Assembly (NCBI RefSeq): GCF_025371035.1
Contig: NZ_JANZXB010000011.1
Location: forward strand, 93,247-157,246
Direction: 5' to 3'
DNA from: Sphingomonas sp. LC-1
GTDB lineage: Bacteria > Pseudomonadota > Alphaproteobacteria > Sphingomonadales > Sphingomonadaceae
DNA: 64,000 nt
The notes beneath the pieces are model-generated. The model was not told the origin of the DNA. It did no database searches and saw nothing but the letters and a program-made list of their open reading frames with translations. The position numbers were made by a program, and so were the translations under genes. Shown here piece by piece: positions 17,503 to 64,000 of this stretch (within the stretch, counting starts at the first letter, position 1; each line of letters starts with the position of its first letter).

Positions 17503-17592
17503 GGAAGAGTGGCCGAGCGGTTTAAGGCACCGGTCTTGAAAACCGGCGATGGTGCAAGCCATCCGTGGGTTCGAATCCCACCTCTTCCGCCA
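17503..17592 (+). tRNA. tRNA-Ser (anticodon UGA)
   Basis: 90 bases including encoded CCA. Acceptor arms GGAAGAG and CTCTTCC pair; the anticodon loop CTTGAAA gives anticodon TGA; the long variable arm (class II) fits serine; the T arm GGTTCGAATCC is intact. The prophage integrase begins 184 bases downstream, so the 3' end of this tRNA is very likely the prophage attachment site, with the tRNA kept whole by the phage copy. Confidence 0.97.
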
Positions 17593-17698: not shown

Positions 17699-17778
17699 GG
17701 GGTATCGGGGGTATCGGACGGGGTATCGCCGTCGACGCGTCCCGCGATACCCCGACCGGCAGGCCGATAGCGGGGTAT
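17699..17778. repeat. GGGGTATCG repeats upstream of integrase
   Basis: GGGGTATCG occurs directly at 17699, 17708 and 17720, inverted (CGATACCCC) at 17745, and partly (GGGGTAT) at 17772 over the integrase start codon. Their place between the tRNA attachment site and int suits arm-type integrase or excisionase sites, or autoregulation of int. Confidence 0.65.
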
Positions 17779-19087
17779 GGACATGCTGACCGACACGGCG
17801 GTGAAAAAGGCGGAGCGACGGGACAAGCCGTACAAGATGGCCGATTCCGGAGGCCTATATCTGCATGTTGCACCTACCGGGTCGAAGTCCTGGCGGATGA
17901 AATTCCGCTTCGACGGCAAGGAAAAGCTGCTGACGTTTGGGCCGTACCCCGAGGTCAAGCTATCCGAGGCGCGCGAACGCCGCGATGAAGCGCGCCGACA
18001 GATCCGTGATCATATCGACCCGTCCGGTGCGCGGCGGCGGTCGCGTGAGGAGCGCGACCGGAAGGCGCTCGACGAGGCACGGGCGGTGTCCTTTGAGACG
18101 GCGGCGCGGGCCTGGTTCGGTCTGCAAAAAGGGCGATGGGCGCCGGTCCACGCGGACGACGTCATCACCAGCTTGGAGCGTGACGTCTTTCCGGCCTTCG
18201 GTGCCCGCGCGTTGACCGAGATTGACGCCCCGACCGTGCTGAAGGCGCTTCGCGCGGTGGAGGATCGCGGCTCGATCGAGACGGCGAAGCGACTGCGCCA
18301 GCGAATCTCGGCGGTCTTCGCGATGTATATCTCTGAGGGGGTCGTCGCAGTCGATCCGGCGGCGGCGGTCGGAAAGGCGCTGCGTCCGCTGCCGAAGAAA
18401 GGTCGGCAGCCCGCGCTGACCGATGTCGACGAAGCGCGCGGCGTGCTGATCGCGGCCGAGGCTTCCGGGGCATCGCCGGTGACCAAGCTGGCTTCGCGCC
18501 TGCTAGCGCTGACCCAATCGCGGCCTGGCATGATCCGTGGGGCCGAATGGGAGGAATTCGAGGGTATTGACTGGACCGGGGAGCAGTATGGCCCATTCAT
18601 GCCGCTGTGGCGCGTCCCGGCGGCGCGCATGAAGCTGGTCAGCGACCTGAAGGCCGAGGAAGCTTTCGAGCACCTGATCCCGCTGCCCTGGCAAGCGGTC
18701 GACACTCTGCTCGCGGTGCGGCGACTGTCCGGCCGTGGCCGCTTGGTCTTTCCAAGCCAGCGGCATAGCCACCGCCCGCTGTCCGAGAATGCGATCGGCT
18801 ATCTGTATAACCGCGTCGGGTATCACGGGCGCCACGTCCCGCACGGCTGGCGCGCCGCATTCTCGACGACGATGAACGCGATCGCCAAGCGCCAGCGCCG
18901 AGTCGGCGATGATGACGTGATCGAGCTGATGCTGGCCCATGTCCCGGCCAATAAAGTGAAGGCGGCCTATGACCGGGCGGGACACATGGAGCGGCGGCGC
19001 GAGCTATCCCAAGAGTGGGCCGACATGCTCATGAAGGGGCTGGCTCCAGCCAATGATGTGCTCGGCGGGCGACGGCGGGGCGGCTGA
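17777..19087 (+). CDS. int: Prophage tyrosine integrase (DUF4102/P4 type)
   Basis: 436 residues. The N-terminal arm-binding domain (DUF4102) is seen in MADSGGLYLHVAPTGSKSWR and FRFDGKEKLLTFGPYPEVKL. The catalytic domain has the first Arg in LTQSRPGMIRGAEW, the HxxR box in PHGWRAAFSTTMN and the Tyr in VKAAYDRAGHMERR. This family integrates at tRNA genes, which fits the adjacent tRNA-Ser. It is convergent with the excisionase gene. Confidence 0.94.
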   Translation: MDMLTDTAVKKAERRDKPYKMADSGGLYLHVAPTGSKSWRMKFRFDGKEKLLTFGPYPEVKLSEARERRDEARRQIRDHIDPSGARRRSREERDRKALDEARAVSFETAARAWFGLQKGRWAPVHADDVITSLERDVFPAFGARALTEIDAPTVLKALRAVEDRGSIETAKRLRQRISAVFAMYISEGVVAVDPAAAVGKALRPLPKKGRQPALTDVDEARGVLIAAEASGASPVTKLASRLLALTQSRPGMIRGAEWEEFEGIDWTGEQYGPFMPLWRVPAARMKLVSDLKAEEAFEHLIPLPWQAVDTLLAVRRLSGRGRLVFPSQRHSHRPLSENAIGYLYNRVGYHGRHVPHGWRAAFSTTMNAIAKRQRRVGDDDVIELMLAHVPANKVKAAYDRAGHMERRRELSQEWADMLMKGLAPANDVLGGRRRGG

Positions 19088-32848: not shown

Positions 32849-33075
32849 TGCCGCCTATCCCCATCACGCCCGCCCGGATGCATAATGTCTATCGCATCGG
32901 CGGCGGTTCCTCGACGGCGGTCGGCAAGGTGGCGCGCTATACCCGCGCCACCGCTGATCACTGCGCTGAGGGTTTGGCTCGCGCTGGTGGCATGCATCGC
33001 GTCGGCATCTGGCATGTCCGCGATCACTCCGCCGTAATCGCCGCTCTGTGCTCGCCATTGGGCCGCGTCGGATGA
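32848..33075 (+). CDS. Hypothetical phage protein (75 aa)
   Basis: TAATG junction with the upstream gene, ATGA junction with the replication gene. RIGGGSSTAVGKVARYTRAT and a His-containing C-terminus. Not recognised. Confidence 0.55.
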   Translation: MPPIPITPARMHNVYRIGGGSSTAVGKVARYTRATADHCAEGLARAGGMHRVGIWHVRDHSAVIAALCSPLGRVG

Positions 33076-33881
33076 GCGTCCGCCTGATGACCGAGGTCTG
33101 GGCCGTCAGCCTGCCGGATAGCGAGAAGCTGGTGCTGCTCGCCCTGGCCGACTGCGCCAACGACGAGGGCCTGTGCTGGCCGTCGATGGCGACGCTCGCG
33201 CGCAAGTGCAGCAAGAGCGATCGCACGGTGCAGGCGTCCATCAAGCGCCTCGTCGCCTCCGGCCACATGAGCCGGTCGGAAGTGCCCGGTAAGGGCTGCC
33301 GATACATCATTCACCCCACCACCGAAACGGCTTCACCCCCGAAGCCACTTCGCCCCGAAGTACCTTCACCCCCGAAGGGAACGACGCAGACCCCCGAAGC
33401 GGCTTCGGACAAACCATCAAGAACCATAAATCCTCAGGAGGCTTCGCCTCCTTCGGTCAAGCGCAAGCGCGAGCCGAAACCCAAGCCTCATCGCTTGCCC
33501 GACGATTGGAAGCCGACGCGCTTCGCCGAGGGCACGGTCGCTCGGGAGATCGTCGACCGGCGCGGTCAGGAATGGGCCCGAGCAACGCTCGAGCTTTTCC
33601 GGAACTGGGCCGCCAACGCCGACCACAAGCCCGGCAAGGGCCTCAAGCTGAACTGGCAACTCGCCTTCGCCAACTGGATCATCGAACAGGACAATCGCGA
33701 TGGAAATCGTTCAACATCCGTATCCCGCCAGCCAGCCAGCGTTCGCGGCGGGCGCCCTGACCCGGCTCTCGACATGCTCCGAGCAGCCCGAGCAGCCCAG
33801 AGCACGCCGGATGGTGCCTCCAGTGGTGGGCGAGATCATCGCCAAACTGGGCTTGCGCTATCGACCGAGTGGACAGGCTGA
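33072..33881 (+). CDS. Winged-HTH replication initiation-type protein
   Basis: 269 residues from ATG at 33072. Residues about 1-85 are a Rep-type winged HTH: LMTEVWAVSLPDSEKLVLLA, CWPSMATLARKCSKSDRTVQ, LVASGHMSRSE. A Pro/Lys/Ser linker follows, then a second domain (LPDDWKPTRFAEGTVAREIV, GKGLKLNWQLAFANWI). This layout is common for phage origin-binding proteins. Its last 182 bases overlap the next gene in another frame. Confidence 0.75.
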   Translation: MSVRLMTEVWAVSLPDSEKLVLLALADCANDEGLCWPSMATLARKCSKSDRTVQASIKRLVASGHMSRSEVPGKGCRYIIHPTTETASPPKPLRPEVPSPPKGTTQTPEAASDKPSRTINPQEASPPSVKRKREPKPKPHRLPDDWKPTRFAEGTVAREIVDRRGQEWARATLELFRNWAANADHKPGKGLKLNWQLAFANWIIEQDNRDGNRSTSVSRQPASVRGGRPDPALDMLRAARAAQSTPDGASSGGRDHRQTGLALSTEWTG

Positions 33882-35519: not shown

Positions 35520-35855
35520 ATGGCATGGCCTACCACCAGCAGGCACGCGCGGGGCTACGGCACCGCTCACGACAAGATGCGGGCGCATCTCATGCGTACC
35601 GTTATTCTCTGTGAGGAATGCACCCGCAAAGGCGAGATCGCGACCGGCACGATTGCCGATCACATCAAGCCATTGGCCAAAGGCGGCGGGAGCGACCGCA
35701 GCAACTATCAGCTGCTCTGTAAGGCGTGCTCGGACGCTAAGACTTTGGCCGACCGCGGCGCAAAGGCCAAAGCGTCGACCGGCGCGACAGGTGTTGATGG
35801 CTGGCCGACCGATCCGCGACACCCTTGGAACGAGCGCCGACCCCGGGGGGGATAG
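35520..35855 (+). CDS. Helper HNH endonuclease (HK97 gp74-like)
   Basis: 111 residues from ATG at 35520. HNH core: ILCEECTRKGEIATGTIADH, IKPLAKGGGSDRSNYQLLC, KACSDAK, PTDPRHPW. In HK97-like phages an HNH protein next to terminase is needed for cos cleavage. A near copy lies in the nested element at 39259. Confidence 0.9.
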   Translation: MAWPTTSRHARGYGTAHDKMRAHLMRTVILCEECTRKGEIATGTIADHIKPLAKGGGSDRSNYQLLCKACSDAKTLADRGAKAKASTGATGVDGWPTDPRHPWNERRPRGG

Positions 35856-35877
35856 GGAAAGTCGGGAGGGCGCGCCC

Positions 35878-35926
35878 TCTAGGACCGACGATCCCCTTCG
35901 CTTCATCGCTAATACAGGATTTGCTC
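35878..35926 (+). promoter_or_regulatory. Cos-like conserved non-coding segment, helper copy
   Basis: The gap between HNH and terS begins TCTAGGACCGACGATCCC and ends AATACAGGATTTGCTC just before the terS ATG. A same-length segment with 39 of 49 bases identical by hand count lies after the nested element's HNH gene (39622-39670), where no terminase follows. Conservation without coding, at the place where HK97-like phages keep cos, makes it a candidate packaging site. Confidence 0.6.
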
Positions 35927-35928
35927 AC

Positions 35929-36411
35929 ATGGCTCGTCGCCCGCGCATCGACAGCGCGGCGGCGGCGGTGTCGACGATGGCGCTGGCCGCTCGCGACCTG
36001 TCGCCGCCCGCGCATGTGTTCCTCCGCCCAGGCGATATGCCGTTCTGGGACAGCGTCATCTCGGAAAAGCCGAAGTCGGAATGGACCGAGAGCGATTTGC
36101 TTGTCGCTGCCAATCTGGCCCGCGCCATGGCCGATGCTGAAATGGTCTCGACCATGTCCGTCGGTCAGCGCGGCAATGTGAAGGGCAAGGTCAAGCAGGC
36201 GTTCGTGATCAAGAGTATCGGCGCCGTCGACAAGTTGGCCCGCCGGATCGTGACGCTGCGCCGCGCGCTGGGCTTGGACAACCGAGCCAAGAATGGCGAG
36301 CAGCGGGACGTGAATAAGCGTCGCGAGCACGCGCATGAAATCGAGGCGGGCCGGAACCCGCTGACCGATGACGGGGACAGCCTCCTGGCGAGGCCTGCCG
36401 GTAGCGCGTGA
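35929..36411 (+). CDS. terS: Terminase small subunit, P27 family
   Basis: 160 residues from ATG at 35929. HVFLRPGDMPFWDSVISEKP, EWTESDLLVAANLARAMADA and KSIGAVDKLARRIVTLRRAL match P27-type small terminases, which recognise the packaging site. The stop overlaps the large terminase GTG start as GTGA, so the pair is coupled, although the large subunit is now split. Confidence 0.85.
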   Translation: MARRPRIDSAAAAVSTMALAARDLSPPAHVFLRPGDMPFWDSVISEKPKSEWTESDLLVAANLARAMADAEMVSTMSVGQRGNVKGKVKQAFVIKSIGAVDKLARRIVTLRRALGLDNRAKNGEQRDVNKRREHAHEIEAGRNPLTDDGDSLLARPAGSA

Positions 36412-36470
36412 CGCGCGGCGAGCGGGTCATCGCCTTCATCCATCGGTATTGCCTGGTCCCGGCAATTTAG
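36408..36470 (+). pseudogene. terL: Terminase large subunit, 5' fragment split by nested element
   Basis: GTG at 36408, coupled to terS. It reads VTRGERVIAFIHRYCLVP and then enters the element at the 7-base core TGGTCCC (36454-36460), giving a short stop at 36468. The residues are the typical large-terminase start that precedes E-G-K-L-V-G-K-P, which is found in frame at 43794. On loss of the element the gene would again read through: 17 codons here plus 486 residues from 43791 onward. Confidence 0.92.
36448..36466. repeat. Left attachment site of nested element
   Basis: ATTGCC-TGGTCCC-GGCAAT: inverted 6-base arms around the 7-base core, the layout of tyrosine-recombinase core sites with a 7-bp overlap region. 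The left arm belongs to terL and the right arm to the element. The rebuilt attB is TTGCCTGGTCCCCGAAGG plus CAA, itself with TTGCCT/AGGCAA arms. Confidence 0.8.
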
Positions 36471-36471
36471 A

Positions 36472-36647
36472 TTGACGCAAAAACAGGGCTCAAACCCGCA
36501 GAAAACTGCCATTTCTTGGGGGCTTCGGCCCCCTTTTTTGTGGCCTGTTGGATTACCAAACCATCACATAAGAAACGGCGGATTTCCGGGCTTTTTCGCG
36601 AAGGTCCGGCGGGTCCGTGACGCATGGAGTGACGCATGAGTGACGCA
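36472..36647. repeat. GACGCA arm-type repeats, left end of nested element
   Basis: TTGACGCA at 36472, then GTGACGCA at 36617, 36629 and 36640 (spacing 12 and 11 bases). The last overlaps the start of the excisionase-like gene. The same GACGCA unit recurs at the right end of the element. Likely integrase/excisionase arm sites, possibly also autoregulatory. Confidence 0.65.
36518..36539 (+). terminator. Strong intrinsic terminator at left end of nested element
   Basis: GGGGGC-TTCG-GCCCCC followed by TTTTTT, only 60 bases inside the element. It would stop transcripts entering from the helper terS/terL start and so insulate element genes from helper late transcription. Confidence 0.9.
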
Positions 36648-36851
36648 CAACCGATGAGCGAAACCGACCTGCTATATGGGGTCGACCAGATCGCCGAGCA
36701 TCTGAAAATGACCCGGCGACAGGTCTATCACCTGCATGACCAAGGGCACCTCCCGACGTTCAAGATCGGCGGCAAGGTGTGCGCTCGCCGGTCGACGCTG
36801 GCAAAGCACTTTGCGGCCCAAGAGGCGGCGCAGAAGGTCGGCAAGGAATGA
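36636..36851 (+). CDS. AlpA/excisionase-like HTH protein of nested element
   Basis: 71 residues from ATG at 36636 (ATG at 36654 is possible). The MerR-like HTH reads YGVDQIAEHLKMTRRQVYHL then GHLPTFKIGGKVCARRSTL, as in phage and island excisionases. Its start lies on a GACGCA repeat, so it may control itself and excision. First gene of an ATGA-linked run. Confidence 0.8.
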   Translation: MSDAQPMSETDLLYGVDQIAEHLKMTRRQVYHLHDQGHLPTFKIGGKVCARRSTLAKHFAAQEAAQKVGKE

Positions 36852-37054
36852 CGCGCGGGCCCACGACACCAGATCGCGAGACGCTGGAAGCCGTCATGCT
36901 AATGCGGGTCGGCGGCGGATGGGCGGTCGGCATCGGCTGTCTTGTCGCGGGAGAGATTGGGCGGGAGCGTTCGTCGTATCTGACGGACCGGGAAGCCCAA
37001 GCGGCGGCGCTCGACCTGGCTGACCGTCATGACCTGATCGTGGTGCGCGCGTGA
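36848..37054 (+). CDS. Hypothetical protein of nested element (68 aa)
   Basis: ATGA overlap with the excisionase-like gene, GTGA overlap with the next. ETLEAVMLMRVGGGWAVGIG, then an alpha/beta end (DREAQAAALDLADRHDLIVV). Not recognised. Confidence 0.6.
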   Translation: MTRGPTTPDRETLEAVMLMRVGGGWAVGIGCLVAGEIGRERSSYLTDREAQAAALDLADRHDLIVVRA

Positions 37055-37254
37055 CCGAGGGCGACGCCGGGCGGATTGTCATAGCTCCGGGCGTGGGCGG
37101 CGCGTGGATGCGGTTCGAAGGGATGAAGCACCCCCCCGTTCCTGCGGTCCGATGGCTTCCCGATATGGCGGCGGCGCGAACGTTCGCGATTGTCATGCAC
37201 CAGTGCCACGGGTGGCGCATCGAGGAAGAATATCCCGACGCGGTGCAATCATGA
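37051..37254 (+). CDS. Hypothetical protein of nested element (67 aa)
   Basis: GTG start at 37051. RIVIAPGVGGAWMRFEGMKH and FAIVMHQCHGWRIEEEYPD. Not recognised. Overlaps the next start as ATGA. Confidence 0.6.
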   Translation: MTEGDAGRIVIAPGVGGAWMRFEGMKHPPVPAVRWLPDMAAARTFAIVMHQCHGWRIEEEYPDAVQS

Positions 37255-37547
37255 GCCGGGTAGCGACTGATTGGGCGGCAAAACAGCGCCCCCCGCAAGC
37301 GATGGACAAGCTGGTGCTATGGGCGCTGGCAGACGCTCACAATCGGGAGAAGGGTTGCGCCTATCCTTCGATCGCCGCTGTCGAAGAGTTCACCGGCTGG
37401 CGGCGGCGCGCGATCGTCGACAGCCTCGCCCGCCTAGCTGACGCCGGGATGATAATTGATACCGGCGACCGGATCGGCCGCACCCGACAGGTGAAGGTCT
37501 GGCGGTTCCCGTTCGACGCCGAAAGGGTGCGGGATATGCACCCTTAA
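37251..37547 (+). CDS. Winged-HTH replication-type protein of nested element, probably shortened
   Basis: 98 residues. WAAKQRPPQAMDKLVLWALA, CAYPSIAAVEEFTGWRRRAI, LARLADAGMII is the same winged-HTH plan as the helper's replication protein at 33072, without the second domain. It ends at ERVRDMHP; the following 100 bases repeat the coding theme of that end (KGAGDAH in another frame), suggesting that a longer repeat-rich C-terminus was lost to a frameshift or stop. Confidence 0.65.
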   Translation: MSRVATDWAAKQRPPQAMDKLVLWALADAHNREKGCAYPSIAAVEEFTGWRRRAIVDSLARLADAGMIIDTGDRIGRTRQVKVWRFPFDAERVRDMHP

Positions 37548-37953
37548 ACCGACCTGAAAGACTGCCTTAGCGTGCACCCTTTCGGACCGGGAAAGGGTGC
37601 AGGAGATGCACACGGAACCTTTATACTAGATACTAGGGTCGCGATCCCTTTCCGAACGCCTCACCAAATTGAACCGTTCACGCCGAGCCGGGGAGCGTCA
37701 GCGACCCCGCACCGTAGCGTCAGCGGTAGGTGCGGAATGATAGGGCGGGACCTGCGCCCCATAGACCGAACACTCTGCGAGGCATCCGCGCGCGAGCGGT
37801 CACGCAATGTCACGCGGTGTCACGCAATGTCACGGGACAGGGGCGCAACTCCTGCACCCCGCACCGCCTGCACCCCGACCCCCGAAATCCCTTCCCCCCG
37901 AAGCGACTGCACCCCGAAGCGACTTCGGGGGATGCATCGGCATGGAGATGACC
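37548..37953. other. 406-base gap of nested element, candidate replication origin
   Basis: No convincing gene. It starts with two GAAAGGGTGC boxes (one in the preceding gene end, one near 37590), then a plain stretch, then four tandem 10-base iterons (37799-37836), then clustered CTGCACCCCG and CCCCGAAGCGAC repeats up to 37928. Tandem iterons next to a Rep-type gene are what a small replicon origin looks like. Confidence 0.55.
37799..37836. repeat. Iterons of nested element
   Basis: GTCACGCAAT at 37799, GTCACGCGGT at 37809, GTCACGCAAT at 37819 and GTCACGGG at 37829, head to tail with exact 10-base spacing, one turn of the helix. They would put bound protein on one face, as at iteron origins. 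Confidence 0.7.
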
Positions 37954-38685
37954 ATGACAGCAATTGTGCCCTTCAACTTCGATTCCACGCCGATCCGCGT
38001 GCAGGTGATCGACGGCGCGCCGTGGTTCGTCGCGATCGATGTGTGCACCGTACTCGACATTGCGCACCACCTCGACGCGCTGTCTCGCCTCGATGAGGAC
38101 GAAAGGGGGTCGCTAGTAGTCGATACCCTTGGCGGGCGGCAGCGCCTGTCGGCGATCAATGAGAGCGGTATGTGGAAGCTGGTGCTTCGGAGCCGGAAGC
38201 CCGCCGCGAAACGCTTGGTCCGCTGGCTCACGTCGGAGGTTCTTCCATCAATCCGGAAAACCGGCGGGTACGGTGCGCCTGCGGCGGCGCTGGACCTTCA
38301 AGATCCGACCGTGCTGCACCGGCTGCTGCTCGACCATACGGGACGGGCAATGGCGATCGAGGCGCGCGTCGCGGAACTTGAGCCCCAGGCGGCGGCGCTC
38401 GCTCGCCTGACGGATGCTGAGGGCGCGCTATGCGTGACGGATGCCGCCAAGGCGCTGGGTGTGCAGCCCAAGCGGTTGTTCGCCTGGCTGGAGCAAAACG
38501 GCTGGATATACCGACGCGCGGGCGGGTCGCACTGGATCGGCTATCAGGCGAAGGTCGCGGCGGGGCTGATCGAGCACAAGGTATCGCGCATCCGTGTGGA
38601 GCGTGGCCCCGACAAGATGCGCGAGCAGGCGCTCATTACCCCGAAGGGGCTCGCCAAGCTGGCCGAGATCGGAGCGGGTCAATGA
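37954..38685 (+). CDS. BRO-N / KilAC phage antirepressor of nested element
   Basis: 243 residues from ATG at 37954, with GGAG 6 bases upstream; the frame is open from 37807 across the iterons. N-terminal BRO domain: IVPFNFDSTPIRVQVIDGAP, FVAIDVCTVLDI, WLTSEVLPSIRKTGGY. C-terminal KilAC domain: TDAAKALGVQPKRLFAWLEQ, NGWIYRR, TPKGLAKLAEI. Such proteins antagonise phage repressors or regulate early genes. In a satellite it could respond to or act on helper control; inferred. Confidence 0.88.
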   Translation: MTAIVPFNFDSTPIRVQVIDGAPWFVAIDVCTVLDIAHHLDALSRLDEDERGSLVVDTLGGRQRLSAINESGMWKLVLRSRKPAAKRLVRWLTSEVLPSIRKTGGYGAPAAALDLQDPTVLHRLLLDHTGRAMAIEARVAELEPQAAALARLTDAEGALCVTDAAKALGVQPKRLFAWLEQNGWIYRRAGGSHWIGYQAKVAAGLIEHKVSRIRVERGPDKMREQALITPKGLAKLAEIGAGQ

Positions 38686-38930
38686 AGCCGGGAAGCGCGA
38701 CTGACGCGACAGTGGCTGCGTTCAAGGCTGCCATGGACGCGGCCCCTGACACGCTGACGGGATGCTTAGCGTTGATCGGCGCGGCGGCGGCGTGTCACGA
38801 AATGCTGGGCCCATCGTTGCCGCCGGGTCGCGCGGACGAGCTGCTGCAAATCTTGAGCTTCGCGGCGGCGATCCTGATTGAGGATGGGCGCGGGCCACTC
38901 GACCTCGCCGAGCCCGCCGGGCGCGCGTGA
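38682..38930 (+). CDS. Hypothetical protein of nested element (82 aa)
   Basis: ATGA overlap with the antirepressor. All-helical, Ala/Leu-rich (TVAAFKAAMDAAPDTLTGCL, ELLQILSFAAAILIEDG). Not recognised. Followed by a 22-codon frame (38930-38998) sharing one base with its stop, too short to judge. Confidence 0.55.
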   Translation: MKPGSATDATVAAFKAAMDAAPDTLTGCLALIGAAAACHEMLGPSLPPGRADELLQILSFAAAILIEDGRGPLDLAEPAGRA

Positions 38931-38943
38931 TGCAGGCGCGTCG

Positions 38944-38990
38944 TGTCCCTGCTATGTCCCTAGGGACAGGCGCGGGACAATCGAGGGACA
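38944..38990. promoter_or_regulatory. TGTCCCT palindromic operator-like cluster
   Basis: TGTCCCT at 38944, the perfect palindrome TGTCCCTAGGGACA at 38955-38968, and AGGGACA at 38984-38990. It stands 20 bases before the next gene and its ribosome site, which suits a regulator binding site or an RNA hairpin controlling the packaging-related half of the element. Confidence 0.5.
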
Positions 38991-39010
38991 GCGCATAAGG
39001 AGGAAGCCTG

Positions 39011-39259
39011 ATGTTCACCGACACCCGCCCCGGAGAGCGTGCCGTTGCGGATCGCCTCATGTCGGTGCTGACCGAGATGCACGGCGAGGGCGTGCATGTT
39101 GCCGACCTGACCGGAGGGGCTGCGATCCTGCTATGCACGCTGATGGACAGCTATGGCGGGCCGGGCAGGACGCCGACCTTTCTTCGCGGCCTCGCCGATC
39201 GATACGAGGCTGACCCGCTGACCGCATCGAGGCCATCGGCGAGCCGGTCCCGCAACTGA
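39011..39259 (+). CDS. Hypothetical protein of nested element (82 aa)
   Basis: ATG at 39011 with AAGGAGGAAG upstream, a strong site. TRPGERAVADRLMSVLTEMH, GAAILLCTLMDSYGGPGR, LRGLADRYEAD; helical. Shares one base with the HNH start (TGATG). Not recognised. Confidence 0.6.
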   Translation: MFTDTRPGERAVADRLMSVLTEMHGEGVHVADLTGGAAILLCTLMDSYGGPGRTPTFLRGLADRYEADPLTASRPSASRSRN

Positions 39260-39576
39260 TGGCATGGGCGAAGACCAGCCGCCACGCGCGGGGCTACGGC
39301 AAGGCGCACGATGCGATGCGCGCCCACCTGATGGCCACCGTGATCCTGTGCGAGGAATGCACGCGCAATAATCGGGTGGCGCCGGGCACGATCGCCGACC
39401 ATATCAAGCCTCTGGCGGACGGCGGCGATGCGAGCCGCAGTAATTACCAGCTGCTATGCAAGCCATGCTCGGACGCCAAGACGATACGGGACAAGGGGCA
39501 GCGACAGCGGGTGCGCGGCGCGTGTGGCGTTGACGGCCTGCCGACCGATCCCTCGCACCCCTGGAACCGACCGTGA
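39259..39576 (+). CDS. HNH endonuclease of nested element, near copy of helper HNH
   Basis: 105 residues. TSRHARGYGKAHDAMRAHLM, ILCEECTRNN, GTIADHIKPLADGGD, RSNYQLLCKPCSDAK and PTDPSHPW line up with the helper HNH at 35520 without gaps over most of their length, roughly 70 percent identical by eye. It keeps all Cys and His residues. Probably nicks or helps cut the cos-like site that follows. Confidence 0.9.
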   Translation: MAWAKTSRHARGYGKAHDAMRAHLMATVILCEECTRNNRVAPGTIADHIKPLADGGDASRSNYQLLCKPCSDAKTIRDKGQRQRVRGACGVDGLPTDPSHPWNRP

Positions 39577-39621
39577 CCTGACCCCCGAGGGGGGGAGGTC
39601 GAAACTTCAAAAGGGGCGCGG

Positions 39622-39670
39622 TCTAGGACCGACGGTCCCTCTTCTTTCATCGCAAATACAGTTTTCGCTC
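39622..39670 (+). promoter_or_regulatory. Cos-like conserved non-coding segment, element copy
   Basis: Begins TCTAGGACCGACGGTCCC and runs 49 bases, matching the helper segment at 35878 base for base in length with 10 differences. In the helper this leads into terS; here it leads to an unrelated small gene, so the match cannot be explained by coding sequence. A shared terminase recognition or cleavage site is the simplest explanation. Confidence 0.6.
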
Positions 39671-39744
39671 TCTGGCTGGCGGATCGCCCCCGCCCCGGCC
39701 TGTTTCCGCGCGTCTGCGCACCACCTGGGGGCGGAGGATAGCTC

Positions 39745-39984
39745 ATGACTGCCGACGATCAGGCGGAGATCACCGATCTGCAACGCCAGCTGCACGCTTA
39801 CATGAACAACCTGATCGCGTCCGGCTTATCGCCCGCGATCGTCACCACCGCCATGCTTGGTGCTGCCAGCGAGCGGGTGTTGCTGGCGAGCAGCCCGACC
39901 ATGACGGCGGCGTGGCTGCGGGGGCATGCTCTGGCCATCGAAAAGTTCGGTCCGGCCATGATTGCGGCGCACGAGGCCGGTTGA
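39745..39984 (+). CDS. Hypothetical protein of nested element at the terS position
   Basis: 79 residues with GGAGG upstream. MTADDQAEITDLQRQLHAYM, then SPAIVTTAMLGAASERVLLA; helical. No resemblance to P27 terminases that I can see. By position between the cos-like segment and the capsid gene it could redirect packaging, but that is only position. The next 218 bases (39985-40202) hold no gene. Confidence 0.6.
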   Translation: MTADDQAEITDLQRQLHAYMNNLIASGLSPAIVTTAMLGAASERVLLASSPTMTAAWLRGHALAIEKFGPAMIAAHEAG

Positions 39985-40202
39985 CCATTCACGGTCTGTT
40001 CTCTATCGATTGAGCCGACCTTGCACGCGAGAGGCTTGCAGGTCCGCCATCATCGAACCAGCGAGAGGCTGGCGCGCGAAGGCGACGAGAGAACCGACCC
40101 GGCCGGGGTGTCCCTGGCGTCAGTTCTAAGACCGTCGACCACGCAGCGAGCGATTGAGGCACCGTGCCCACTGTCCGCTGCGACACAACAAGGGCAATTT
40201 CC

Positions 40203-41366
40203 ATGAAGAAGCGTTCGTTTTTCGCCAGTGCGGCGATCCTTGGCCCCATGACCGCAATCGAGCGGTCGCGCGGTCGTTATATGCGTGGACCGGAAGGCCA
40301 TTCGGGCACCGGCGGGAAGTCGGCCGCCGAGCTGGCCGAGGAAACCAAAACCTACCTCGACAATCGGTTTTTCGCGATCGAGCAGAAGATTGCGCGCGGC
40401 GAGCTTCACGGCGGCGCCGAAGCCCCTCTGACCTGGGGCGGCGAGTTCGTCGAAGCGAAGTCGGAAGACATCGCGGCGCTGGTCAAGAGCCGCGGTCGCC
40501 TGGGAATGGAGGTCAAGGCAACCATCTCGACCCAGACGGGGAGCGGCGGCGGCCTGATCGTTCCGACGCGCGACCAAACCCTGATGATGCCGCAGCGCCG
40601 GCTGACCGTTCGCAATCTGATGACGACCATCGAAGTGTCGAGCAATTCCGTCGAGTATGCCCGCCAGACTGCGCGGCCGACGGGAGCGGATACCGTTGCG
40701 GAACTTGCTCTCAAGCCGGAAAGCGCAATCGCCTTTGACCTGACGACCGCGCCCATTCGGACGATCGCGCACTGGATCCCCGCCTCGCTGCAGGTGCTGG
40801 ACGACGCGCCGCAGCTGCGCGACATGATCGATACCGAATTGCTGTACGGCGTCGCGCTCAAGGAAGAGCAGCAGCTGCTCAACGGTTCGGGCACCGGGCA
40901 GAACCTTACCGGCATGGTGACGGCAGCGACGGCATTCGATCCGGCGGTTCTGACGGCCCTGGGCTTCACGTCCCCCAACCGCATCGACCGCATCGGCGCA
41001 GCGATTTATCAGGCGGCGCTGACCGATGTTCCGCCCGACGGCATCGTTCTGCACCCCTCCGATTGGTGGGCAATGCGTCTCGCCAAGGATGGGCAGGGGA
41101 AATACATCCTGGGCGATCCGGGCGTGGACGTCACTCCGGTCCTGTTCGGTCTCCCTGTCGTGCCGACGCAGGCGCAGGCGGCCGGGCGTTTCCTGGTCGG
41201 TTCGTTCAAGTCGCAGACGGTCTATGATCGGTGGGCACCGCGCGTTGAGGTGTCGACCGAGCACGCCGACTTCTTCGTTCGCAACATGTGCGCGATCCGC
41301 GCCGAAGAGCGCATCGGTTCGGCGATCAAGCGGCCCGAGGCCCTGATTACCGGCACCTTCGCATAA
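40203..41366 (+). CDS. Major capsid protein of nested element (HK97 fold)
   Basis: 387 residues. It aligns with the helper capsid at 47201 along its whole C-terminal body: LMMPQRRLTVRNLM / VELPQRRLTIRSLL, RTIAHW, EEQQLLNGSGTGQNL, DGQGKYILGDP / DGQGRYLIGNP, GLPVVPTQA / GLPVVATQA. The start ILGPMTAIERSRGRYMRGPE also matches the helper start, while the delta/scaffold region between is about 45 residues shorter. The element has no protease or portal, so assembly would need helper proteins. Confidence 0.92.
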   Translation: MKKRSFFASAAILGPMTAIERSRGRYMRGPEGHSGTGGKSAAELAEETKTYLDNRFFAIEQKIARGELHGGAEAPLTWGGEFVEAKSEDIAALVKSRGRLGMEVKATISTQTGSGGGLIVPTRDQTLMMPQRRLTVRNLMTTIEVSSNSVEYARQTARPTGADTVAELALKPESAIAFDLTTAPIRTIAHWIPASLQVLDDAPQLRDMIDTELLYGVALKEEQQLLNGSGTGQNLTGMVTAATAFDPAVLTALGFTSPNRIDRIGAAIYQAALTDVPPDGIVLHPSDWWAMRLAKDGQGKYILGDPGVDVTPVLFGLPVVPTQAQAAGRFLVGSFKSQTVYDRWAPRVEVSTEHADFFVRNMCAIRAEERIGSAIKRPEALITGTFA

Positions 41367-41373
41367 CCGGATC

Positions 41374-41400
41374 GGCTGGCGTTGCTCACCATCGCCAGCC
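41374..41400 (+). terminator. Hairpin after element capsid gene
   Basis: GGCTGGCG (41374-41381) pairs with CGCCAGCC (41393-41400), 8 bases after the capsid stop. No T run. Could trim or stop the capsid transcript. The rest of 41401-41532 has no gene. Confidence 0.5.
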
Positions 41401-41532
41401 GCTAATCCCGTCCAGTGAGCGAGGTCGATGCGGCGCGACCAATAACGGAAAGCCCGATGCCCGGGCGGGTCCCTCTCTGGGGGTTCAGGGCTCAATCGGG
41501 CAACGCCGCCACCTTTCCACAGGAGATAGACC

Positions 41533-41730
41533 ATGGCGAAGCTCGTCAAGACTGTGGCGGCGGGTGCCGCCGTCGTCGCCCTCGCCGCGACCGGGATCGG
41601 TGCAGTGGCCTTCCCGGCATTTGCAGGATCACTCAGCATCTTCGGCATTTCGACTGCCGCCCTTGGCGCGATCAGCACAGGGCAGGCTCGAGCCGGGCCC
41701 TTGCGCCGCCGCCGGAGACGCCATCCATGA
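41533..41730 (+). CDS. Small membrane protein, like the start of a phage tail protein
   Basis: 65 residues with AGGAG upstream. MAKLVKTVAAGAAVVALAAT then a Gly/Ala/Phe-rich hydrophobic run, the type of N-terminus seen on central tail proteins such as the helper's at 57150. It ends in an Arg-rich tail (LRRRRRRHP) that looks like a frame change. Probably the stump of a tail gene, though the ATGA overlap with the next gene shows the join is now in use. Confidence 0.5.
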   Translation: MAKLVKTVAAGAAVVALAATGIGAVAFPAFAGSLSIFGISTAALGAISTGQARAGPLRRRRRRHP

Positions 41731-42362
41731 CCGCTATCACGATGATGGTGCAACGCGCGGCACAGCGCGGAGTGATTCTATCAGACTGCGCTGTGACCAC
41801 ACCCGAGGGGGTGCTGATCGGCTCCGTGTCGAAGGTTGTTCAAGGCACCGCGTTCCCGTGGGCCTTCGCCATGACCGGCAATCTTTTGCCCGAGGCGATT
41901 CTGACGACCGCGCTGACCGACCCGGCGCGAACAGCGGATGCGGCCGCCTTTTCCCGCGCTTTGCCTGACGCGCTACGGCAGATGGTGGAGCAGACCGCGT
42001 TCAAGCTGCGCATACCGATGGCCGCCATCATGACGCAGGCCGTCGGCGTCATGTGGGACGAGGCAGAGCAGCGGCTGGTCGGTTTCTTCGTCACCACCCA
42101 TTCCGGCGCGCTGAGGCGTTGCAGCGCCGCTTGGAGCACGCCGCTGGGACCGCGATGCTGCTGGCGGATAATGCATTGGTGCCCCCGGATCAGGGGAGCG
42201 CAATGTACCTCGTCGCGCACAGCCTCCAAGACTCACTCGACCGACTGGACGCGATTGTCCGCACGGCTTCGGCGGCGGCGGTGCCGTCGTGACCCGCTGG
42301 TCATCGTGGGCGTGGATCCGCGCCTTCAAGGCGGTGGGCGGCATAGTGTGGATCTCGGATGA
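41727..42362 (+). CDS. Ntn-hydrolase-like phage protein, frameshifted near 42110
   Basis: Open for 211 residues, but third-position GC supports the frame only to about 42110. MTAITMMVQRAAQRGVILSD and GVLIGSVSKVVQGTAFPWAF AMTG resemble a family of phage proteins near tail genes with a proteasome-subunit-like (Ntn) fold, assigned from memory. After 42110 coding signals move to the next frame, so the gene is broken or ends early. Confidence 0.5.
   Translation: MTAITMMVQRAAQRGVILSDCAVTTPEGVLIGSVSKVVQGTAFPWAFAMTGNLLPEAILTTALTDPARTADAAAFSRALPDALRQMVEQTAFKLRIPMAAIMTQAVGVMWDEAEQRLVGFFVTTHSGALRRCSAAWSTPLGPRCCWRIMHWCPRIRGAQCTSSRTASKTHSTDWTRLSARLRRRRCRRDPLVIVGVDPRLQGGGRHSVDLG
42155..42292 (+). CDS. Small helical protein or shifted tail of previous gene
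   Basis: In the frame favoured by codon-position GC from about 42115 on. From ATG at 42155 it gives 45 residues (MLLADNALVPPDQGSAMYLV, HSLQDSLDRLDAIVRTAS). The same frame is open upstream through EALQRRLEHAAGTA, so it may instead be the C-terminus of the preceding gene after a one-base shift. Stop overlaps the next GTG (GTGA). Confidence 0.45.
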   Translation: MLLADNALVPPDQGSAMYLVAHSLQDSLDRLDAIVRTASAAAVPS

Positions 42363-42501
42363 TGGGCGGCTCACCCTGGGCTGGCACATCAAGGGGTATA
42401 CGCTGGCGCAGAACATCGAGGCGCGCCGCCTGTACGGCGAAATCGAGAATAGCGAACGGCGGCATCGCGCCGTCATGAACCGGGTTGCCGCGCGCAACTG
42501 A
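42289..42501 (+). CDS. Hypothetical protein of nested element (70 aa)
   Basis: GTG start at 42289. VTRWSSWAWIRAFKAVGGIV, WISDDGRLTLGWHIKGYT, then a charged helix. Not recognised. Followed 62 bases later by the integrase. Confidence 0.6.
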   Translation: MTRWSSWAWIRAFKAVGGIVWISDDGRLTLGWHIKGYTLAQNIEARRLYGEIENSERRHRAVMNRVAARN

Positions 42502-42562
42502 CACCCTGCCCCGCCCGTCCCGATCGGCGGCGCGGCGGGGCCTTTCACATGGAGATGAGACT

Positions 42563-43756
42563 ATGGCGAGCGTGAGCAAGCGCCGTTGGACGAAGCCCGA
42601 CGGGACGACCGGCGAGCGGTGGCAAGTCCGCTATGTCGATCCTGCCACGGGGCGACGCCCGGCAAAGGTGTTTGAACTGAAAAAAGACGCTGACGCCTTC
42701 AAACGGAAGGTTGAGCGGGAGATAGAAGACGGAGTGCATACCGCTGCGGCCGACTCGCCAAAAGTCGAGACGGTGGCAGACGAGTTCATGGCCGACGCCG
42801 CCCGCCGCTTGAAGGATGGCAGGATAGGCCGGTCACGGTTCGACAAGCTGGAACTGATCGTCCGCCGCAATGTGAAACCCAGCCTGGGCCACCTTAGCAT
42901 TCGCGACCTGACGCACGATCACGTCCGATCGCTATATGACGGGCTTGTGCGCGACGGCTTCACGCCGTTCCGTGCGCGAGATCGTTTGATCGATATTCGG
43001 CAGGTCGAGGCATTCGCGCTGCGGCGGCGATACACAAAGACCCAGCCCGTCGCGGACGTGCTGGAAGAGCTGCGGGGCATGTCACGCCCGGTGATCCGCA
43101 CATTCGAGGTCGAAGAGGTGCAGCACCTCCTACAAGTCGCGGGCGCGCACCGTCATTGGATGAGGGGTCGTGCGGCGGCGTTGTGCAATCTCATGGTGAA
43201 CCTTGCCGCGTGCTGCGGTCTGCGGCGCGGCGAGATCCTGGGACTGACGATCGCAAATGTCGACATCGAACGCCGCATCATTCAGGTCCGCCACAACCTC
43301 ACCACCTACGACGAATTGAAGGGGCCAAAGACCACGGCGGGCGTTCGAGACGTGCCCATGCCACGCCATGTCGCTGCACTGCTGGAAAAATGGGCGGCGG
43401 AACATATGCGGCCCGATCCGCGTGGATTGCTTTTCCGCACGCCGACCGGGAACCAGATATTTCCCGCGCTGGTCAACCAGATGTGGAACAAGCTGCTAAA
43501 GGACGCGGGGCTAGACCACGAGACAAACGGCTTCCATTTCCACGCGCTGCGGCATTTCGCCGCGAGTTGGATGATCGAGAACAACCTCCCCTTGCCGGAG
43601 GTGGCGAAGCTGATGGGACATAGCCGCGTCGATATGACGATGCAGGTTTACGCCCACGCGCTCCGCAACGCGGATGCCCGACATGCGGAGATGCAGCGGA
43701 TGGCGGACGCAATAGTGCCTAATCTGCTGACGCATGAAGGACGCATGGCAGCGTAA
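42563..43756 (+). CDS. int: Tyrosine integrase of nested element
   Basis: 397 residues from ATG at 42563 (GGAGATGAG upstream). N-terminal arm-binding domain GTTGERWQVRYVDPATGRRP, SAM-like core domain about 70-170, catalytic domain with Arg in CGLRRGEILGL, HALRHFAASWMIE (HxxR), GHSRVDMTMQVYAHAL (Tyr). It is unlike the helper integrase, with no DUF4102 domain. The stop is 30 bases from the right core repeat, as usual for an integrase beside its attachment site. Confidence 0.95.
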   Translation: MASVSKRRWTKPDGTTGERWQVRYVDPATGRRPAKVFELKKDADAFKRKVEREIEDGVHTAAADSPKVETVADEFMADAARRLKDGRIGRSRFDKLELIVRRNVKPSLGHLSIRDLTHDHVRSLYDGLVRDGFTPFRARDRLIDIRQVEAFALRRRYTKTQPVADVLEELRGMSRPVIRTFEVEEVQHLLQVAGAHRHWMRGRAAALCNLMVNLAACCGLRRGEILGLTIANVDIERRIIQVRHNLTTYDELKGPKTTAGVRDVPMPRHVAALLEKWAAEHMRPDPRGLLFRTPTGNQIFPALVNQMWNKLLKDAGLDHETNGFHFHALRHFAASWMIENNLPLPEVAKLMGHSRVDMTMQVYAHALRNADARHAEMQRMADAIVPNLLTHEGRMAA

Positions 43757-43792
43757 CGCACTGTAATATAACGCCCTTTTTTTCTTGGTCCC
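43728..43792. repeat. Right end of nested element: arm repeats and right attachment core
   Basis: TGACGCATG at 43728, GACGCATGG at 43740 and AACGCA at 43755 repeat the GACGCA unit of the left end; they overlap the integrase stop. The core TGGTCCC lies at 43786-43792, flanked on the terL side by CGAAGGCAA. Confidence 0.75.
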
Positions 43793-45251
43793 CGAAGGCA
43801 AACTGGTCGGGAAGCCGATGCGGCTGGAGGAGTTCCAGCAGCGCTTCATACTTGATGTTTACGACAATCCGGTCGGCACGACGGAGGGTATCCTCTCCAT
43901 CGCCCGCAAGAACGGCAAGTCCGGTCTGATCGCCGCGATCCTGCTGGCCCACATCGCGGGGCCTGAGGTGCGGCTGAATAGCCAGATCGTCAGCGGCGCC
44001 CGCTCGCGTGAGCAGGCAGCGCTCGTGTTCAACCTCGCGGCCAAGATGGTCGCCATGTCGCCCGACCTGTCCCGGCTGATCCGCATCGTACCATCGGGCA
44101 AGCGCCTGATCGGCTTGGCGCTGAATGTCGAATACAAGGCGCTGGCCGCAGAGGGCTCGACCTCGCACGGCCTGTCGCCGGTGCTCGCCATTCTCGACGA
44201 GCTGGGCCAGGTGCGCGGCGATCACGACGATTTCGTCGAGGCGATCGAGACGGCCAGCGGCGCCTATGACGATGCGCTTCGCCTGATCATCTCGACCCAG
44301 GCTCCCACTGACGCCGACATGCTGAGCGTCAAGATCGACGACGCGCGGCGATCCGGCGATCCGAAGATCATCTGCCACGTTTATGAGGCTCCGGCCGATT
44401 GCGACGTGCTTGACCCGGAAGCCCACCGCGCCGCCAACCCGGCGCTGGGCACCTTCCGGTCCCAGGCGGAATTGCTCGCGGCTGCCGAGAAGGCGTCCCG
44501 CATGCCGTCGGCGGAGAACGGCTTCCGGAATCTTTACCTCAACCAGCGGGTCAACCGGTTCTCGCCGTTCATCGCCCCGGGCGTCTGGCTCGCTTGCAAC
44601 AGCGAGGTCGATGACGAGGCGTTCGCCAAGGGACTGGTCTTCGGTGGGCTCGACCTCGCCGAGACGACCGACCTTTGCGCGTTCGTGCTGGTTGCCTTCT
44701 GGATGGGCAAATGGCACGTCAAGGCGTGGTTCTGGAAGCCTGAGGCCACGGTGCTCGATCACGCCAAGCGCGATCGGGTGCCGTATGACCGCTGGGTCAA
44801 GGATGGGCTGATCGAGACCACGCCCGGCGTCGCGGTCGATTATGAATTCGTCGCCACCAAGATCGGCCAGATCACGGACGGGATGAACATCGGTCGCATC
44901 GGGTTCGACCGGCATCGGTTCAAGACGCTCGAGGCCCAGATGGGCAAGCTGGGGATCACCCTCCCCTTTGAGCCCTTTGGCCAGGGCCACGTCAGCATGG
45001 CTCCGGCCATGGACACCACAGAGATTGCATTCCTCAACGGCCAGGTCGCCCACGGCGCGAACCCGGTGATGACGATGTGCGCCGCCAATGCCGTCGTCGA
45101 GAAGAACGCGGCGGGTGATCGGAAACTGAACAAGGCGAAGTCGACCGGCCGCATTGACGGCATGGTCGCTCTCGTGATGGCAATGGGAGTGGCGGCGATG
45201 CAGACCAACGACGCCACGAACGCCGACGACTGGATCGCGAGCCTTTCGTGA
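43785..45251 (+). CDS. terL: Terminase large subunit, 3' part split by nested element
   Basis: 487 codons from the core repeat to the stop at 45251; a TTG at 43785 opens the frame but the true start is at 36408. ATPase: RKNGKSGLIAAILLAHIAG (Walker A region), SPVLAILDELGQV (Walker B). Nuclease: FGGLDLAETTDLCAFVLVA, NIGRIGFDRHRFK. The motor that fills capsids. As it stands, a protein lacking the first 16 residues might be made from the TTG, but no ribosome site is visible, so the prophage is probably packaging-defective while the element is present. Confidence 0.93.
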   Translation: MVPEGKLVGKPMRLEEFQQRFILDVYDNPVGTTEGILSIARKNGKSGLIAAILLAHIAGPEVRLNSQIVSGARSREQAALVFNLAAKMVAMSPDLSRLIRIVPSGKRLIGLALNVEYKALAAEGSTSHGLSPVLAILDELGQVRGDHDDFVEAIETASGAYDDALRLIISTQAPTDADMLSVKIDDARRSGDPKIICHVYEAPADCDVLDPEAHRAANPALGTFRSQAELLAAAEKASRMPSAENGFRNLYLNQRVNRFSPFIAPGVWLACNSEVDDEAFAKGLVFGGLDLAETTDLCAFVLVAFWMGKWHVKAWFWKPEATVLDHAKRDRVPYDRWVKDGLIETTPGVAVDYEFVATKIGQITDGMNIGRIGFDRHRFKTLEAQMGKLGITLPFEPFGQGHVSMAPAMDTTEIAFLNGQVAHGANPVMTMCAANAVVEKNAAGDRKLNKAKSTGRIDGMVALVMAMGVAAMQTNDATNADDWIASLS

Positions 45252-63852: not shown

Positions 63853-64000
63853 TGCCGGGCCTTGGCATCGGCTTGGGCATCGGCCTAGGCGGCAGCGCGG
63901 GCGGCGGGCCGGGTCTTTCGGCCAACAAGACCACCTATTACACCACTATTTCTCAGGGTGCGCTGATTGCGTCCCTGACGGATCCTTTCGGTACCGGATC
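63852..64000 (+). CDS. Gly-rich phage protein (3' end outside window)
   Basis: Open from ATG at 63852 to the window edge. MPGLGIGLGIGLGGSAGGGP then LSANKTTYYTTISQGALIAS. The start pattern resembles late tail or fibre-type proteins. The prophage therefore continues to the right. Confidence 0.65.
   Translation, partial: MPGLGIGLGIGLGGSAGGGPGLSANKTTYYTTISQGALIASLTDPFGTG

Follow-up and report, generated by a model that had tools for sequence, protein, structure and literature searches.

The interrupted large terminase gene

In the window, the 64,000-nucleotide stretch of Sphingomonas DNA that was analysed, an integrative element at 36454-43792 interrupts the large terminase gene (terL) of an HK97-type prophage, here called the helper, 18 codons into the frame. 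The features discussed below are given with the locus L011, which carries the closest integrase found (74% identical to that of the window), as the main comparison.

17777-19087, plus strand: helper prophage integrase, adjoining tRNA-Ser (17503-17592)
33335-33408, plus strand: iteron-like repeats inside the helper HTH_36 replication gene (33048-33881)
35520-35855, plus strand: helper HNH endonuclease
35845-35928, plus strand: helper cos-like block between HNH and terS, the place of the genome ends in HK022
35929-36411, plus strand: helper terS (phrog_5601)
36408-36453, plus strand: helper terL 5' fragment before the core, aligning with the start of the intact TerL proteins of L067-L071
36454-36460, plus strand: attL core TGGTCCC, in the same position as the L011 core TCGTACC
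36518-36533, plus strand: intrinsic terminator-like hairpin with a T run, just inside attL; inspection by eye shows a similar hairpin at the corresponding end of the L011 element
36618-36647, plus strand: three TGACGCA repeats, putative integrase arm sites, 164, 176 and 187 nt from the core, with the same spacing in L011
36636-36851, plus strand: HTH_17 protein, AlpA/excisionase-like (Pfam 4.9e-7; phrog_66, excisionase and regulator, 1.2e-6)
36848-37254, plus strand: two hypothetical small ORFs (36848-37054 and 37051-37254)
37251-37547, plus strand: 98-aa HTH_36 protein (phrog_6643, 8e-17, profile positions 1-89 of 313)
37879-37931, plus strand: iteron-like cluster of the element, resembling that in the helper replication gene
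37942-38685, plus strand: Bro-N and KilAC (ANT) antirepressor-type protein (phrog_130, 3.4e-71)
38682-39259, plus strand: two small ORFs (38682-38930 and 39011-39259) with no relatives in the loci compared
39259-39576, plus strand: HNH endonuclease, 73% identical to the helper HNH and 81% to the L069 HNH
39583-39695, plus strand: cos-like noncoding block of helper type, laid out as at the HK022 genome ends
39745-39984, plus strand: hypothetical 79-aa protein where terS would stand, 78% identical in L011
40203-41366, plus strand: HK97-fold major capsid protein, 387 aa (profile matches)
41533-42501, plus strand: hypothetical small ORFs, frame use uncertain
42563-43756, plus strand: tyrosine integrase at the right end of the element (profile matches, alignment, tree)
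43706-43745, plus strand: GACGCA repeats, putative right arm sites, at -80, -57 and -46 from the core, with the same spacing in L011
43786-43792, plus strand: attR core TGGTCCC, the direct-repeat core
43793-45251, plus strand: helper terL 3' part, TerL by Pfam

The TGA stop of terS (36409-36411) is overlapped by a GTG at 36408, as the preliminary description had stated, and the frame from this GTG reads VTRGERVIAFIHRYCLVP and then AI-stop within the element. Two copies of the core TGGTCCC, at 36454 and 43786, flank the element, and since both start at the second base of codon 16, the phases of the two terL parts agree. The piece at 43785-45251 was identified as TerL by Pfam (TerL_ATPase 1.1e-11, TerL_nuclease 3.1e-29), in line with the earlier claim of a terL interrupted in phase by an integrase-bearing element. 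The 7-mer alone was rejected as proof of att sites, as the window contains 13 copies versus 8.5 expected and 7 of 100 shuffles reach 13.

A search with the terL 3' piece gave seven viral loci, five of which (L067-L071) span the interrupted codon. In all five terL is uninterrupted there, encoding TerL proteins of 503-506 residues, and the fragment at 36408 aligns to their N-terminus. The TerL of L068 is 99% identical and has 503 residues, precisely the length previously predicted for the rejoined protein. In L011, terL is split at the same codon by an insertion with its own matched core, TCGTACC, different from TGGTCCC, which upholds the placement of attB inside terL. Intact genes in related phages and a related element at this codon had both been proposed as checks, and it is these intact relatives together with the same-codon insertion in L011 that confirm the splitting of terL by the element. 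Patterns resembling the attB and attP junctions, with up to two mismatches, had 0 matches in the assembly, as would be expected without induction.

Since terL is a known home of intron- and intein-type insertions and the element includes an HNH gene, a group I intron or intein-type insertion with a homing endonuclease was also considered, and is given next to no credence. Rfam at gathering scores found no RNA family in 36300-44000, the element HNH resembles that of the helper and precedes a cos-like block, the insertion encodes a tyrosine integrase and has cores in direct repeat, and the first terL fragment runs into a stop.

Gene content and packaging signals of the element

The element is inserted in a late gene of the prophage and has the same orientation as it. 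tblastn matches of its HTH_17 protein were obtained in 37 loci, and the Phage_AlpA family gave no match for this protein (36636-36851). The similarity of the 98-aa HTH_36 protein to phage replication initiators is confined to their N-terminal part; no complete replication initiator was found in the element and no primase PHROG in its 14 ORFs, only this truncated initiator-like protein and the iterons. The two densest CCCCGAA clusters of the window are located in the helper replication gene and in the element. The capsid protein lacks about 42 residues of the N-terminal region of the helper capsid, and for none of the 14 element ORFs scanned was the main match a terminase, portal or tail family. 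As the right-hand GACGCA repeats overlap the end of the integrase gene, their preservation could be explained by coding conservation.

The order attL-HTH_17-rep-Bro-(HNH, cos)-capsid-int-attR recurs in part in L007, L011, L013, L014 and L017. A tape-measure-like protein is encoded in the L011 element and a tape measure protein in the L007 element, so tail genes do occur among the relatives. These genes, together with defence genes near the integrase in L010, L009 and L004 (PifA-like, TIR, type IIG restriction and DUF262/NsnA-like), would suit a rival temperate phage, or the remnant of one, that attaches in the late genes of resident prophages and so disables its competitors. This reading is improbable in view of the size of the element (7.3 kb), its single capsid gene, its cos-like block of helper type and the lack of a main match to any terminase, portal or tail family. 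Somewhat less improbable, though still unlikely, is that the insertion inactivated the phage and that both are decaying, which would accord with the lack of any direct sign of activity and with a prophage running to the contig end; against this, the integrase and main element genes are open, the cores and repeats are in place, and long open frames continue through the helper late region. The gene content fits a satellite that would need the structural and packaging genes of a helper for its movement, and the element is very probably a phage satellite embedded in its own helper prophage.

The cos-like block, which the preliminary description did not include, was examined by pairwise alignment of the element copies against eight helper intervals. 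The L011 copy matched its own helper clearly best (124, next 92) and the L007 copy did so by a small margin (64, next 57), while the window copy was about equally close to L068 (89) and its own helper (86). A general rule that the element copy always resembles its own helper most is thus not borne out: L011 and L007 follow it, the window does not. The conserved part ATCGCTAATACAG is missing from L069, a helper with intact terL, at up to two mismatches, and the exact cos variant pattern of the window had no match in the viral contigs scanned, while a looser search among related loci did give matches. BLASTN of element against helper revealed no common stretch in L017 and L050, and the matches in L013, L030, L043 and L053 were not taken as cos.

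Proposed life cycle of the embedded satellite

The tyrosine integrase would recombine the 7-bp core with codons 16-18 of helper terL, and as long as the element resides there the helper has no whole large terminase. Induction would release the composite from the chromosome, after which the integrase and the HTH_17 protein may excise the element and make terL whole. The element would then be amplified from its helper-type iterons, and the helper terminase, perhaps with the element HNH, would cut it at its own cos-like block, its DNA being packed into heads containing the element's capsid protein, possibly of changed size. We infer by analogy that the resident element blocks helper packaging and that excision frees it, the precedent being 11capE/50icd, whose excision after induction was measured in E. 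coli (PMC10111431).

Integrase relatives and helper-embedded PICIs

The earlier statement that no satellite was described with terL as its site does not stand, as helper-embedded PICIs (HE-PICIs) were reported in 2023 at 14 late-gene sites, including terL (A:Terminase_1:245 and :246) (Tommasini et al. 2023, PMC10111431). The window element and its relatives resemble HE-PICIs in their terL, portal, protease and capsid sites, in the HTH_17/AlpA, Bro and captured capsid genes, in a cos-like block common to element and helper, and in a site-changing integrase clade. Different from HE-PICIs, the Arm-DNA-bind_3 domain is absent from the window integrase and the relatives scanned, int adjoins attR and faces outward instead of adjoining attL and facing inward, primase and an own replication zone were not found in the window element, and the named host is Sphingomonas, not a member of Enterobacterales. 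No exact copy of the motif TGTATTGC, which is doubled in HE-PICI attP, occurs in the window, where 0.7 would be expected. A further difference is the terminator-like hairpin inside attL, which would stop helper transcription from entering the element, so the passive transcription proposed for HE-PICIs (PMC10111431) is doubtful here.

BLASTP of the window integrase with that of 11capE gave no match at E<=10, and the top identity of 11capE to the rows of the integrase tree is 22%; the 11capE integrase nevertheless finds a match (3e-12) in L052, a basal relative situated in terL. Judged against 11capE, the single HE-PICI integrase compared, and by its different N-terminal domain, the window integrase does not belong to the HE-PICI clade.

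Other known systems share part of this layout. The cos-type island SaPIbov5 (PMC8569155) is likewise a satellite with a helper-capsid homologue (Ccm) and cos packaging, putative here, while SaPIs are islands of Staphylococcus. In the packaging module of HK97 and HK022, too, a cos interval directly precedes terS and terL, with a similar layout in HK022, whereas the element combines HNH and a cos-like block with a 79-aa protein replacing terS and no terL.

Integrase relatives adjoin many other late genes, an observation beyond the preliminary description. The integrase-adjoining gene matched a phage family in 38 of 40 loci scanned, and 37 of these neighbours were terL, portal, head, protease, HNH or tail genes. 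An automated search for 5' gene halves, covering at most ~10 kb upstream in every locus except the window, gave matches in 10 of 40 loci tried; both halves were accepted in seven (L007, L013, L017, L030, L043, L050 and L053), while the 5' matches were weak in L044 and L049 and spurious in L037. Short first fragments can escape tblastn, and the window and L011, missed in this way, were mapped by eye.

What appears to be new, judged from sequence, is the late-gene embedding habit in an integrase of a different kind from those of HE-PICIs, the 2023 paper having asked whether a peculiarity of the integrase clade lies behind late-gene tropism (PMC10111431). We consider it reasonably likely that the habit of inserting into late genes of a helper has had at least two origins, in differently built tyrosine integrase lineages, and that integrases of the second lineage changed targets repeatedly, between terL, portal, protease, capsid, HNH and tail genes, with the cos-like block of the element remaining of its helper's type. 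The match of 11capE to L052 somewhat lowers the odds of this reading. If so, taking hostage a gene essential for packaging or for the head would be a strategy of satellites in general rather than a quirk of one clade, and similar targets in another group, whose integrase is built differently and whose int lies at the opposite end, would point to selection for hostage-taking. If the cos-like blocks of element and helper keep one type, they may help in matching a satellite with its helper by sequence. The sole named host of the late-gene integrase group is Sphingomonas.

Split terL and attachment sites

The element occupies 36454-43792 of the window and splits the large terminase gene (terL) of the HK97-type prophage, which is termed the helper here, between two identical 7-nt cores.

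Attachment cores in the window
36454-36460, left core (attL), TGGTCCC
43786-43792, right core (attR), TGGTCCC

The 5' piece of terL runs for 18 codons to a stop within the element, and reading restarts at the second core in the same phase, as the preliminary description had stated. The 3' piece was identified as TerL by Pfam (TerL_ATPase and TerL_nuclease), with 58% identity to the TerL of HK022 and its kin. Scanning of viral_contigs with this piece returned seven loci, five of which cover the insertion codon, and terL is unbroken in all five (L067, 505 residues; L068, 503; L069, 506; L070, 503; L071, 503); L072 and L073 begin downstream of the codon. The L068 TerL, at 99% identity, has the length of 503 residues proposed earlier for the rejoined halves.

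The preliminary description had also called for a search for a kindred element at the same codon, and one was found in L011, whose integrase is the nearest relative found (74%) and which lies in terL there, with cores TCGTACC at 463 and 11224; the cores are thus identical within each pair and different between the pairs. In the window and L011 alike, TGACGCA repeats lie 164, 176 and 187 nt inward from the left core, and GACGCA repeats lie 80, 57 and 46 nt ahead of the right core. Among 43 loci with identity of at least 34% and copies excluded, 16 carry TGACGCA in a 220-nt segment spanning the integrase stop (mean 0.63 versus 0.03 expected from whole loci). A terminator-like hairpin was located 58 nt inside attL of the window.

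Integrase family and adjoining late genes

Scanning of viral_contigs with the integrase alignment A1 gave 57 loci, and L007-L010 from genomes brought these to 61; the viral setting is unsurprising because IMG/VR holds viral contigs only. The ORF adjoining the integrase was compared with PHROGs at 40 loci, several of them near copies (e.g. L020/L021 and L049/L050), and matched in 38, the exceptions being L029 and L039. Duplicates, short contigs, partial matches and unclear frames were left out (L009, L012, L016, L018, L027, L028, L035, L037, L038, L046, L047, L055, L056, L058-L065).

PHROGs families of the ORF adjoining the integrase (loci)
portal, 11
terL, 9
major head, 9
head maturation protease, 4
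minor tail, 2
virion structural, 1
HNH, 1
unknown function, 1

An automatic search of 40 loci for the two halves of the split gene gave ten matches, of which seven were accepted, the halves having a core of 8 to 19 nt in common: L007, L013 (protease), L017 (terL), L030, L043 (portal), L050 and L053 (capsid). In L014, L022, L024, L026, L041 and L044 the profile match begins near the gene start, so the profile does not show a split.

The family is rare in genomes, with three of 397 in the taxonomic family at E<=1e-60 (own genome counted), all adjoining late genes, and one of 385 class-wide at E<=1e-80, which is the own genome. Sphingomonas is the only host named.

For control, 23 less closely related integrases from the order (23-33% identity, E 1e-31 to 1e-58), of which some are partial or have an in-frame stop, were checked, and no late-gene fragment was recognised beside them in flanks of mostly 1.5 kb, L082 showing a weak match to an L007 ORF; tRNA genes adjoin three. 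A quick tree of 71 rows places the late-gene-adjoining integrases and ten rows of unassigned neighbours in a group of 48 rows (SH-aLRT 91), 43 of which group at SH-aLRT 100. L045 and L052 branch outside this group at the base, and a separate group contains 18 of the 19 chromosomal rows. The labels terL, portal and capsid (that of L018 assigned by eye) need 8, 9 and 8 changes on the tree, at minimum 5, 3 and 3 being forced by well-supported branches, and cluster only slightly above shuffled labels.

Element genes and the block upstream of terS

The element encodes an HTH_17 protein, a truncated replication-initiator-like protein, a Bro-N/KilAC antirepressor, an HNH protein, an HK97-type capsid lacking about 42 residues that the helper capsid has close to its N-terminus, and a tyrosine integrase. 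Terminase, portal, tail and primase families were the main match of none of its ORFs scanned (14 against PHROGs, in sets of eight and seven sharing one, and eight against Pfam), the HNH protein weakly matching one terminase small subunit family (2e-4). A 79-aa protein (39745-39984) occupies the terS place, with no PHROG match, and is 78% identical in L011 and 67% in L017. The HNH protein of L069, a helper without an element (2123-2434), is 81% identical to that of the window element, versus 73% for the window helper. In L014 (679-1172), where the element adjoins a protease gene, a rep-like gene and a small ORF are 99% and 96% identical to those of the window, which suggests that elements using different sites have recently exchanged modules.

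The HNH and downstream stretches of element and helper share 72% identity over 444 nt (BLASTN of the element with the remainder of the window). The noncoding part contains a cos-like block directly upstream of terS, which is kept in the helper, L067, L068, L070 and L071, altered in L069, and also carried by the window and L011 elements; the deposited HK022 genome ends mark an interval of like layout, judged by eye, 50 nt before terS. Three element copies were each aligned to eight helper intervals, that of L011's helper included.

Alignment of element block copies to helper intervals (score; identity over aligned letters)
L011 copy: own helper 124, 88%; next, L071, 92
L007 copy: own helper 64, 84%; next, L067, 57
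window copy: L068 89, 84%; own helper 86, 84%

In the matrix without L068-L071, own-helper identities were 84%, 57% and 70% for L011, L007 and the window, with 56% for L007 against L067. The copies are therefore of helper type, and a clear tie to its own helper holds for that of L011 alone. The two densest clusters of the iteron ACCCCCGAAG..CTTCG in the window lie in the helper replication gene and the element; the L011 stretch examined holds no such cluster, and its initiator-like gene is fuller than that of the window element.

Relation to helper-embedded PICIs

The element is best regarded as a helper-embedded satellite; the split and its repeats are established directly, and we infer the life cycle from its anatomy and the E. 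coli precedent of helper-embedded PICIs (HE-PICIs, PMC10111431); the right end of the helper is out of view since the contig ends within the prophage at 64000. Titles and abstract starts, in a scope outside bioRxiv and most subscription journals, gave no recognised later or alphaproteobacterial case beyond that paper, which PMC11389934 cites. The single HE-PICI integrase compared, that of 11capE, and the window integrase gave no BLASTP match at E<=10 in either direction; 11capE matched L052 (25% over 324 residues, 3e-12) and the integrase of the helper itself (4e-10), its long branch making its placement in the tree untrustworthy. Arm-DNA-bind_3 is present in the 11capE and helper integrases but absent from those of the window, L017 and ten others.

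Sphingomonas sp. PsM26, the source of both genome_contigs loci, carries two family integrases, L010 in terL and L009 with no late gene seen and a chromosomal look by eye, the latter resembling the off-target copies known for HE-PICIs. Matches to defence families (PifA-like KAP NTPase, TIR, MmeI-type IIG restriction-methylase and DUF262/NsnA-like) lie near integrases at L010:1281-3422, L009:1906-3186, L009:4881-8480 and L004:2411-3496. The integrases L029 and L053 share the viral contig IMGVR_UViG_2643221868_000001, so one prophage may carry two embedded elements.
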